A stretch of DNA of 45,830 nucleotides from Solirubrobacterales bacterium (GTDB lineage Bacteria > Actinomycetota > Thermoleophilia > Solirubrobacterales > JACPNS01): contig JACPNS010000013.1 in the NCBI GenBank assembly GCA_016185345.1, positions 74,432-120,261 of the forward strand, in the 5' to 3' direction. Of this stretch, positions 9,759-35,402 are shown one piece after another. Position numbers and translations under genes: made by a program. The stretch's first letter is position 1, and each line of letters opens with the position of its first letter. Under the pieces are notes generated by a model, which saw only the letters and a list, made by a program, of their open reading frames with translations, searched no databases and was not told the origin of the DNA.

Positions 9759-10526
9759 CTAGGCAGTTCCTCGGTTGAGTTTCTTGATTTGCATTGAGAT
9801 GCTCTTGGCGACGAGCTCGAACTTCCAGAGGGCGACAAAGAGCAGGATTGCCGTGATCAGGGCGACGAAGAACGTGATGCGCATCTCGGTCGGCATGTTG
9901 CCGCCGGTGGCCGTGAGCACGCGCGGGTGGATCAGGGATTCGCTGAGACGCACGGCGATGAAGTTCAGCGGCACGAAGGCGCCCGCGAGGATCGCGTACA
10001 CGGCAGCGGTCTGGGCCTGGCGCTCTGGGTCCTCGATCGCGAATCGCATCGGCTGGTAGATCGCGAAAATCAGGAAGACGATCAGGAACGAGACGAGCGT
10101 CGGTTCCTTCCACTCCCAGAAGACGCCCCAAGCGGTCTTGGCCCAGATCATTCCGGTGAGCAGCACGACGACGCCGATGATCAGGCTGAGGTGGATGGCC
10201 ACGTAGGAGCGAAGGTCCCACGCGCTGTCACGCGTACGCAGGTACTGCACGGCCATCACCCCGCCGGCGAAGAAGCCGCCGAGCGCAACGATCGCGAGCG
10301 GCACGTGCAGGAAGAAGATCTTCTGGCGCATGCCTTGGTCGGCATCGATCGGCGCGTACCAGAAAACGAGAATCCCAGTGATGATCAGGCCGATGATCGC
10401 GGCGATCGTGAAGCCCTTCAGCCCGCGCGCAAACTGAGTCGCGCTGTCGCGGCTGGGCCTGCTGGGGGCTGAGAAAAAGCGTGAATCTGTCTGCGGCTGG
10501 GACACTGCGGCTGAAACCGTACCCAA
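9759..10526 (-). CDS. ccmC: Heme handling protein CcmC
   Basis: Polytopic membrane protein of the CcmC/CcsA/HemAT-type family that presents heme to CcmE. It is about 255 aa with six hydrophobic segments. A tryptophan-rich signature, WGVFWEWKEP, stands where the family has a WGxxWxWD motif (the D is K-E here). Conserved heme-flanking histidines occur in FFLHVPLA and in the segment before it. The first ~35 residues are polar and the start is uncertain: TTG at 10526, or GTG seven codons later. Three palindromes lie immediately upstream (10550-10700). Confidence 0.88.
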   Translation of the reverse strand: MGTVSAAVSQPQTDSRFFSAPSRPSRDSATQFARGLKGFTIAAIIGLIITGILVFWYAPIDADQGMRQKIFFLHVPLAIVALGGFFAGGVMAVQYLRTRDSAWDLRSYVAIHLSLIIGVVVLLTGMIWAKTAWGVFWEWKEPTLVSFLIVFLIFAIYQPMRFAIEDPERQAQTAAVYAILAGAFVPLNFIAVRLSESLIHPRVLTATGGNMPTEMRITFFVALITAILLFVALWKFELVAKSISMQIKKLNRGTA

Positions 10527-10549
10527 CCGGAGCCGCGCAGCTGCTGTTT

Positions 10550-10700
10550 GCTGCGCACCACGGGTGTGCAGCGCGGGTTAGTGCCGAAGAAGGCGATAGG
10601 TATGCGGTCGTGTGCTGCACACCTGTGGTGTGCAGCAGGGCGTCCCACGTACAAGCGGTTCTTGGCCGCCAAATCTGGTTGCACACCCGTGGTGTGCAAC
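10550..10700. repeat. Three 23-bp palindromes at exact 64-bp spacing
   Basis: Cores at 10550-10572, 10614-10636 and 10678-10700 follow the consensus GYTGCRCACC-NNG-GGTGTGCARC. Copy 2 has perfect 11-bp arms (10613-10637), copy 3 perfect 10-bp arms, and copy 1 has one G.T mismatch. Changes at the second base of the arm are compensated on the other side. The 41-nt stretches between copies are unrelated on simple reading. The array fills the 180-nt gap upstream of ccmC and downstream of the small gene at 10707-11033. Regulator operators or RNA hairpins are both possible. Confidence 0.8.
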
Positions 10701-10706
10701 AGATTG

Positions 10707-11033
10707 CTAGTTGCCGACCGAACCTGTCGAGCCGGAGCCGGTGGCTCCGGTGGCTGAGCTGGCGCCGGTGGCGCCGGTTGGCTCAGCGGCGGCGGCTTCG
10801 GCTTCGCCCTTGCGCTTGCCCTGGCGGGCGCCCTTGAGCATGCCCTCCTGGAGACCGGAGTTGAAGGCGTCGCCGCGCGCGGCGATTCGCGCGCTCTTGG
10901 AGGCGGCGGCATAAGCCTGCTGCTTGGCGGCCTGCGCGTCGGCTTCGGTGGGCTGGGCGTTGTGGCCCAGCGCGAGGCCGAGCCCCAACGCGAGCACCGC
11001 AACCGCAACCATTAGTCCCCTGATCAGATTCAC
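10707..11033 (-). CDS. Small secreted or membrane-anchored Ala/Gly/Lys-rich protein
   Basis: Unknown. From the GTG at 11033 the protein is 108 aa: a short N-terminus with one Arg, a hydrophobic stretch LMVAVAVLALGLGLALG, then an Ala-rich region with evenly spaced small and basic residues (GDAFNSGLQEGMLKGARQGK), and a Gly/Thr/Ser/Ala tail (TGATGASS...). An ATG at 11012 has a better Shine-Dalgarno (AGGGG, 5 nt) and would leave no basic n-region. It is divergent from the similar small gene at 11077 and separated by an inverted repeat. It sits between ccmB and ccmC, which makes a link to cytochrome maturation possible but unproven. Confidence 0.55.
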   Translation of the reverse strand: MNLIRGLMVAVAVLALGLGLALGHNAQPTEADAQAAKQQAYAAASKSARIAARGDAFNSGLQEGMLKGARQGKRKGEAEAAAAEPTGATGASSATGATGSGSTGSVGN

Positions 11034-11051
11034 GCGCGGAATGATCGCATG

Positions 11052-11075
11052 GCCGGGCCGGTACGATGGCCCGGC
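11052..11075. promoter_or_regulatory. 8-8-8 inverted repeat around a -10-like box
   Basis: Perfect 8-bp arms GCCGGGCC and GGCCCGGC flank ggTACGAT. TACGAT (11062-11067) fits the actinobacterial -10 form TANNNT and ends 9 nt before the GTG at 11077. The site lies between two divergent small genes, so it could be an operator covering the promoter. Confidence 0.5.
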
Positions 11076-11076
11076 T

Positions 11077-11331
11077 GTGGAGATGACTGTCCAAAGAGAA
11101 CGCAAGTACGCGCTGGCAACTGCTGGCGCGGCGTTGCTGTTGTTGATCTCTGGCTACTTCATTGGCAAGTCAGGCGGGGCCGACATCGACGCCGCGAGCG
11201 CGGCCGGAGCCAAGGCAGGCACCGTCGCCGGAACGAAGACCGGCAAGAAGCAGGGCTACGACGCCGGTTACAAGAAGGGCTATCGGACTTCTTACAAGGC
11301 GGCCTACGAGAAGGCCAAGCGGGGCGACTGA
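11077..11331 (+). CDS. Small membrane-anchored protein with a period-4 tyrosine tail
   Basis: Unknown, 84 aa from the GTG (an ATG two codons later is also possible). A short basic N-terminus (QRERKYA) is followed by a transmembrane segment (LATAGAALLLLISGYFIG). Then come a Gly/Ala/Lys-rich linker and a tail with Tyr every fourth residue, in the pattern GYxxGYxxGYxxSYxxAY, ending in KAKRGD. The layout resembles the divergent neighbour at 10707-11033. A TACGAT box 9 nt upstream suggests a leaderless transcript. It ends 1 nt before the convergent ccmB stop. A structural or polymer-like role can be guessed, but no family was recognised. Confidence 0.65.
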   Translation: MEMTVQRERKYALATAGAALLLLISGYFIGKSGGADIDAASAAGAKAGTVAGTKTGKKQGYDAGYKKGYRTSYKAAYEKAKRGD

Positions 11332-28009: not shown

Positions 28010-29500
28010 ATGGCTAATAGGAGGGCCACTCAGTATCCAGGCGCGATGCCGGAGGAAATCGCGTTTGGGAAACGCCGCACGGATGCGCGGAACGCATCGC
28101 TGCGCGTAGATGGCTCCTTCGTAGTTGCCGCTCTGATCTCACTACTGCTGGTTGTCCCTGCGGTGGCAGTTGGATGGAGCGTCGGAAAAGCCGGCGGGGC
28201 CGCCGGCTTTGGAATGGCGGTAGCGGCCGGGAGCCTGGTCTCGGTGATTGTCACGTTCTTGGCCGCACGCGCCTGGCTGCAGTTCGCGCCGGGCGACAGG
28301 CTCTTCGCCGACGCGACGCTGACGGGCTGGATTCGCCGCGGACGCGCCGAGCGACAGGTGGCTGCCGCACGCGAAGTCTTTGATCACCCCGATGTCGCGT
28401 CGATCGGGCTCCACGTCGACCGGCTGATCGCAATCTCCAAAGCAGTCGAGGCTCGCGACTCGCGAACGCACCGTCATTCGAACCGCGTCGCGATCCACGC
28501 AACCGCAGCCGCGAAGCGCCTCGGGCTCGATCGCGAGGCGACGACTCGCCTGCGCGCCGCCGCAAAGCTTCACGACATCGGCGCGCTGCGCGAAACGGTC
28601 TGGCTTGAGCCGAGCGAGGAAGAACGACTGGCTGTCGCGCTCGCGGGCGCCGACCTGGTCGCCTTCACCGGCGACCGCCGGATGATCGCTGCGCTGCGCC
28701 ACCAAAACGAGAACTTCGACGGCTCCGGGTCACCCGACGGACTGGCCGGCGACGCGATCCCGCTTACGGCGCGCATCATCGCCGTGGCGAACGCGTACGA
28801 CACGGTCTCGCGCGAACGCGGGCAGGCTGCGGCACTCGCAGAACTGAACGCGCGCGCTGGTTCACGGTTTGACCCGGATGTCGTCGAAGCATTCAACATC
28901 GACGCGCAGGCAAGTCCGATCGCGGCGTTGCGCGGAGCCGCTGCGGGCGTCGCGCCCAAGGCCACTGCAGCTGCCACCGACTTGGTTCGCGGCTCGGCCA
29001 CCGTTGCCGTCGCGGCTTCGATCGCCACCGGAACAATTGTGTCGGCTGGCGTTGGCGGCTCACCTTCGTCCGACGGAAACGACCCTCGGTCAAAAACTAT
29101 CCCCGCCGCAGCGGTCGTGTCCGCTGAAGGCTCTGCGTCCAGCGGGACCGACGACTCGCCGGAAACCAAGTCCAAGAAGACGGGCGATCGCGATAGCAAC
29201 AGCGAGAAGGAGGCGGATCCAAGTTCGTCTCGGTCAGAAACGAACTCCGATTATGGATCGTCCACGTTCGCCAACTCCCCGAGCGGCAGCGACGACAGAG
29301 GCGACTTGCCGCTGACAAAGAATTTCCCAGAAGTCAAGAAGCCCGAGGTGCCGGTTGCCCCAGTTCAAGGCGTGAGCGAGACGATCGGCGAGACGATCGA
29401 CAACACGACCCAGCCAGTAGACAAGGTGGTCGAAGGTCTCGGGAACACCGTCGACGACACCGTTGATGGCACCGTCGGCGTCCTCCCCAAGAAGAAGTAG
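28010..29500 (+). CDS. Membrane HD-GYP-like protein with degenerate GYP site
   Basis: 496 aa. Two N-terminal hydrophobic segments (VVAALISLLLVVPAVAVG and GFGMAVAAGSLVSVIVTFLA), a cytoplasmic HD domain (about 150-300), a C-terminal hydrophobic stretch near 330-350, and a Ser/Asp/Lys-rich tail. The HD pair is kept (AAKLHDIGAL), but where HD-GYP phosphodiesterases have HHxE..DGxGYPxGL it has HQNENFDGSGSPDGL, and the usual AVADxFDA is AVANAYDT. Metal-binding His residues and the Tyr of GYP are thus lost. It is probably inactive as a cyclic-di-GMP phosphodiesterase and may act as a sensor. Its paralogue at 32487 is intact. Confidence 0.8.
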   Translation: MANRRATQYPGAMPEEIAFGKRRTDARNASLRVDGSFVVAALISLLLVVPAVAVGWSVGKAGGAAGFGMAVAAGSLVSVIVTFLAARAWLQFAPGDRLFADATLTGWIRRGRAERQVAAAREVFDHPDVASIGLHVDRLIAISKAVEARDSRTHRHSNRVAIHATAAAKRLGLDREATTRLRAAAKLHDIGALRETVWLEPSEEERLAVALAGADLVAFTGDRRMIAALRHQNENFDGSGSPDGLAGDAIPLTARIIAVANAYDTVSRERGQAAALAELNARAGSRFDPDVVEAFNIDAQASPIAALRGAAAGVAPKATAAATDLVRGSATVAVAASIATGTIVSAGVGGSPSSDGNDPRSKTIPAAAVVSAEGSASSGTDDSPETKSKKTGDRDSNSEKEADPSSSRSETNSDYGSSTFANSPSGSDDRGDLPLTKNFPEVKKPEVPVAPVQGVSETIGETIDNTTQPVDKVVEGLGNTVDDTVDGTVGVLPKKK

Positions 29501-35345: not shown

Positions 35346-35402
35346 CGCAAATAGCGACACCAACCTCAGACCCGGTCTGAGGTTGCATCCGCAAATAGCG
35401 AC
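35346..35402. repeat. Perfect 12-bp hairpin flanked by 13-bp direct repeats
   Basis: CAACCTCAGACC (35361-35372) and its exact complement (35374-35385) are separated by one base. The 13-mer CGCAAATAGCGAC occurs on both sides (35346-35358 and 35390-35402). The element fills most of the gap between the PAP2 stop and ychF and is followed by TTTT. It could be a terminator, an operator pair or a small miniature repeat. Confidence 0.7.

Follow-up and report, generated by a model that had tools for sequence, protein, structure and literature searches.

The window, by which we mean the whole 45,830-nt stretch of DNA analyzed here, belongs to a Solirubrobacterales genome (G000; 2.43 Mb, 22 contigs, 96.7% complete) and carries three palindromes, each with a 3-nt loop, centered at positions 10561, 10625 and 10689 (Table 1). 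These lie between a small open reading frame (ORF) and ccmC, both read from the minus strand, and are thus upstream of ccmC on that strand. The ccmC product matches TIGR01191 with an E value of 1.9e-25, which is under the curated cut-off of that model, and the true start of the gene is probably near 10502, as it is in G001, the genome of the same genus that we used for comparison. An initial annotation had described the palindromes as near-identical and exactly 64 bp apart; both intervals were again found to be 64 bp, and a search of the window with TGCACACCNNNGGTGTGCA, allowing up to three mismatches, returned three matches where 0.19 were expected, a number reached in none of 100 dinucleotide shuffles. 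The analysis also supports its statements that the palindromes can form strong hairpins and that they are not protein repeats. Its claim of matched, compensatory changes in the arms stands only in part, as over all modules of G000 the bases at one position of the stem (TGC[x]CACC/GGTG[y]GCA) frequently fail to pair, in 7 of 14 cells. Elsewhere in the window there are two more palindromes with perfect 11-bp arms, AAAGCCGGCGG (28187-28210) and CAACCTCAGAC (35361-35385); shuffled sequence yields one or two such palindromes, and these are probably due to chance.

Table 1. Features of the ccmC upstream region in the window, and copies of the palindromes in G000
Feature	Position	Strand	Remarks
Palindrome P1 (outer)	10550-10572 (narrower bounds 10551..10571)		CTGCGCACC-acg-GGTGTGCAG; 10-bp arms, one mismatch
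Palindrome P2 (central, common to both half-modules)	10613-10637		TGCTGCACACC-tgt-GGTGTGCAGCA; 11-bp perfect arms
Palindrome P3 (outer)	10678-10700		GTTGCACACC-cgt-GGTGTGCAAC; 10-bp perfect arms
Half-module M(-): P2, 43-nt interior, P1	10551..10635	-	homologs at other G000 loci and in G001
Half-module M(+): P2, 43-nt interior, P3	10615..10699	+	homologs at other G000 loci and in G001
ccmC (heme ABC transporter permease), downstream neighbor	9759..10526	-	TIGR01191, TIGR03144
Small ORF of unknown function, upstream neighbor	10707..11105	-	G001 counterpart ends ~12 bp before ccmC
Stretch without G001 counterpart (outer bound of insertion)	10511..10737		BLAST: 227 bp here, 43 bp at the syntenic site
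Window copy	G000		intervals 64, 64
C21 copy	G000 C21:48373		intervals 64, 93, 64
C5 copy	G000 C5:78404		intervals 64, 91, 64
C15 copy	G000 C15:60399		one pair; left partner short of one base

A search of G000 for the motif with up to two mismatches located it in four places only, the window and three others, all of them intergenic. The copies on C21 and C5 consist of two inverted half-modules whose inner palindromes are separated by 70-72 bp, unlike the window copy, in which both half-modules use one common palindrome. The interior between paired palindromes is weakly conserved and oriented among the G000 modules, and reading by eye revealed no consistent -35/-10 promoter within it. A CRISPR-like array was considered and dropped, the interiors being oriented and homologous between loci. 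A covariance model, R1, was built from the seven G000 modules and used to search relatives; the two half-modules of the window, themselves members of the R1 alignment, score 3.1e-19 for M(-) and 1.0e-19 for M(+).

Strong matches to R1 were obtained in one congener only, G001. Its palindrome, TTGCATGCC-N3-GGCATGCAA, is present in 27 copies at 10 loci, mostly as triplets, compared with a total of 13 palindromes in G000, and copy number is thus low in both genomes. Although the pattern search behind the G001 count imposed no spacing, all 17 intervals are exactly 63 bp. The arms of the 17 G001 modules are 96-100% identical and their interiors 44% (26% when shuffled); the interiors contain 289 substitutions relative to the consensus in 714 bases, and their length is unchanged in every module. 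Several copies are located between convergent genes. Of the refuting outcomes that the initial annotation had named, a dispersed repeat family was indeed found, but one in which the spacing rule holds, at mostly 64 bp in G000; likewise, the arrangement is not kept at ccmC in the close relative, while the spacing is, as 63 bp, at ten other loci of G001. Neither the covariance model nor the pattern search revealed palindromes or modules above chance in G002-G004. When about 85,000 genomes were scanned for the palindrome pair, 41 stretches were returned, and on inspection these are unrelated repeats; a viral scan gave a single, unrelated match, and a scan of plasmids and phages gave none. Lone matches in G004 and G066 have TGCGCACCCTGGGTGAGCA in common, and that in G066 reads as coding sequence.

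Comparison of syntenic sites suggests that the palindromes arrived by insertion. The gap between ccmC and its neighbor is about 12 bp in G001 and about 205 bp in G000, and all four G000 element sites (window, C21, C5 and C15) are empty in G001. At the C21 site the stop and start codons of the G001 genes overlap as ATGA, and a short duplication of the target may be present there. Conversely, the G001 sites on C78 and C76 are empty in G000 and those on C28 and C1 correspond to shorter gaps; the C86 and C7 sites are not clean, with other DNA present there in G000. Aligned flanks of the two species are about 75-91% identical, and it appears that the insertions are younger than the species split. 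The junction occupied by the C21 element in G000 (carboxylase/BKACE-like), empty in G001, holds in G004 (C18, L204) an insertion with the palindrome of the RAYT gene on G004 contig C3, and two element types may share insertion spots. The infC-rpmI gap, where G001 has a palindromic element, is occupied in G000 (C4, L193) by about 740 bp with a secreted-protein-like ORF. A long palindrome in G001 (C20:148702, L113), CCCCAACGTACGACGTGCC...GGCACGTCGTACGTTGGGG, stands beside a gene end and represents a separate family.

Folding as DNA gave z scores of -4.8 to -9.5 against shuffles for eight three-palindrome elements (nine folds). In most single-stranded folds the outer palindromes pair with each other and the middle one forms an apical hairpin, as in REPINs. 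The C78 element adopts another minimum-energy form, and in the C145 fold the mismatched middle palindrome is weak.

REP and REPIN sequences are repeats dispersed in genomes by a tyrosine transposase, termed RAYT or TnpA_REP, that acts on single-stranded DNA and bears HUH and Tyr motifs. On contig C120 of G001, two modules are situated one on each side of a gene for a 239-residue protein. This protein scores 15.1 of the 23 bits needed in Pfam, which is below the cut-off, and has no NCBIfam match, and it is 31% identical over 223 residues to a G000 protein (L141) that passes the PF01797 (Y1_Tnp) cut-off. Its AF2 model (pLDDT 88) retrieved as the first Foldseek match 4ER8, the E. coli RAYT in complex with a REP hairpin (E 4.3e-5), with a VIA Z score of 13.1 over 146 residues, and IS608 transposases came next, with Z near 8.5; sequence searches of the PDB gave no match, and the likeness to 4ER8 came from the fold search only. 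The motifs are intact: HUH as H102-L-H104 and Tyr as Y164---N168, 60 residues apart, close to the Y---NP pattern of class 2 and to the usual HUH-Tyr distance of 58-67 (PMC6006769), and distinct from the IS200/IS605 motif Y---Q, which it does not have. The fold, the motifs and the paralogues together point to a RAYT-like protein.

A search with a fragment of this protein revealed the gene family in all five genomes (G000-G004), with 4-6 genes per near-complete genome in the genus and few elsewhere in the order. The Y---N motif is present in 16 of 17 RAYT-like proteins, Q occurring in L187 only. Of the 17 genes, 5 lie between matching palindromes, of a kind particular to each gene, as against none of 163 control ORFs; the other 12 have no such pair. 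One such palindrome, 49-51 nt long and beginning CCCCTACATACGTCCTGCCGA..., flanks the second RAYT of G000 (L176; G000:C3:346013-346844) and has two flanking and seven dispersed copies, in G000 only. That RAYT, the nearest in sequence (45%), was rejected as the cognate enzyme of the window element, as its palindrome differs. For the G003 RAYT on C9, seven copies of its palindrome flank the gene, with spacings of 42 and 51, and about 10 more are dispersed in G003; a small number of weak matches was obtained in G002 and G001. A RAYT-like gene on G001 contig C20 (L182) has lost the first His of HUH (LFH) and, judged from this change, is probably inactive. No RAYT flanked by the exact TGCACACC-type palindrome was found in G000, and the cognate enzyme was therefore inferred from the congener G001.

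Taken together, these observations suggest, with a probability of about 0.86, that the three palindromes together form a single copy of a non-autonomous mobile element, short and REP/REPIN-like, which landed before ccmC, and not a ccmC switch. Several features of such elements were observed: short intergenic palindromes in several copies (four loci in G000, ten in G001), syntenic sites that are filled in one genome and empty in the other, predicted pairing of the inverted palindromes into a single hairpin when the DNA is single-stranded, and HUH and Tyr motifs in a RAYT fold (in a G001 protein below the Pfam cut-off). A RAYT gene that has the element's own palindrome on either side is found in G001, on C120; none was found for the G000 palindrome in G000 itself. 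The GT[AG]G tetranucleotide at the hairpin foot is absent from the flanks, read by eye, and for this reason we class the element as palindromic and RAYT-associated, without assigning it to the canonical GTAG REPs. It apparently belongs to a divergent RAYT family lacking the GTAG foot, and it is apparently orphaned in G000. A RAYT of the C120 type would recognize the folded palindromes and cut and rejoin single-stranded DNA. The parent arrangement may have been M(-)-rayt-M(+), from which loss of the gene and joining at the inner palindromes would yield the three-palindrome form of the window; orphan copies would then be left in G000 either by loss of the cognate RAYT or by an assembly that lacks it. 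Any influence on ccmC expression would be a by-product.

Published REPIN and RAYT systems (PMC6006769, PMC3733652, PMC3116915, PMC8266576) provide close parallels. Like the REPINs of Pseudomonas fluorescens SBW25, the elements are short, intergenic, non-autonomous and dispersed, with inverted palindromes able to form one long hairpin and a RAYT gene set between palindromes of the same type, each RAYT having one palindrome type; they differ in having three perfect palindromes with the central one shared, in copy number (tens, against hundreds), in the absence of a GT[AG]G foot, and in an invariant spacing of 63/64 bp (PMC3116915). The BIME/REP sequences of E. coli and their TnpA_REP (PDB 4ER8) share the mosaic of palindromic units with linkers of set length and the transposase fold, whereas the palindrome sequence differs, the E. 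coli foot is GTAG, and no conserved bulge of that kind is seen here. In TnpAY1 class 3 and subclass 2.6, RAYT-like genes are likewise bordered by atypical secondary structures, further copies of which are found at other places in the genome, but the Tyr motif of the present proteins is the class 2 form Y---N and not Y----Q, and no CnGA foot of the class 3 kind was seen (PMC6006769). TIRYTs (PMC3733652; mostly subclass 2.1 in PMC6006769) likewise place a Y1 transposase gene between inverted repeats, which here are themselves made of palindromes. Only IS-type members have been reported from the Actinobacteridae (PMC6006769).

The initial annotation had read the palindromes as sites for an unknown dimeric regulator of ccmC. 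Phased operators serving ccmC and a few other genes would account for the exact helical phasing (63 = 6 x 10.5), for strongly conserved arms around a little-constrained interior, and for the non-complementary stem position, which a protein half-site could tolerate. This reading is nevertheless very improbable: the sites are an assortment of intergenic positions, several between convergent genes, the neighbors have no common function, and in the congener nothing is inserted at ccmC and the palindromes flank a transposase-like gene. Convergent placement, together with the stable RNA fold of the window element (z -4.3), would suit a structured RNA or a bidirectional terminator, to which we give scarcely any credence, as the hairpins lack a trailing T-run (by eye), Rfam has no match in the window at gathering score, and the interiors have diverged to 44% identity.

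A further proposal refines the mobile-element reading instead of replacing it. On this view the family arose from RAYT-moved elements, and its palindrome pairs may by now be duplex-DNA binding sites for the RAYT or a host protein, which would explain the rigid spacing. The accumulation of substitutions in G001 interiors of constant length between nearly invariant arms favors this idea; yet mobilization alone could require strict spacing, some REP dimers have conserved spacers (PMC3733652), and the sites differ between the species, with none in common. We consider it unlikely.

The unusual part of the REP/REPIN-like element is its strictly fixed 63/64-bp spacing in two species despite diverged interiors, and this phasing is real. 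We know of no such rule for REPINs. Whatever moves or binds the pair may require the fixed distance. Because the insertions appear to postdate the species split, the divergence of the interiors (40% from the consensus) may be older than the insertions, in which case spacing, and not interior sequence, would be what the machinery demands; alternatively, spacing may be maintained by selection after insertion. Tentatively, and with less than even odds, we suggest a RAYT system whose working unit is a rigid pair of palindromes, set exactly six helical turns apart (63 bp, with 64 bp for the sister species) and bound or moved as one body. Between the species, the palindromes of such a system would have changed in sequence in all copies jointly, under a spacing rule that stayed the same.

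These results explain an apparent operator array as mobile DNA. They add a divergent RAYT/REP lineage, in a genus several of whose RAYT-like genes have their own palindrome. The spacing rule, if real, would be a testable clue to how RAYTs recognize and move their substrates, a process that is poorly understood.
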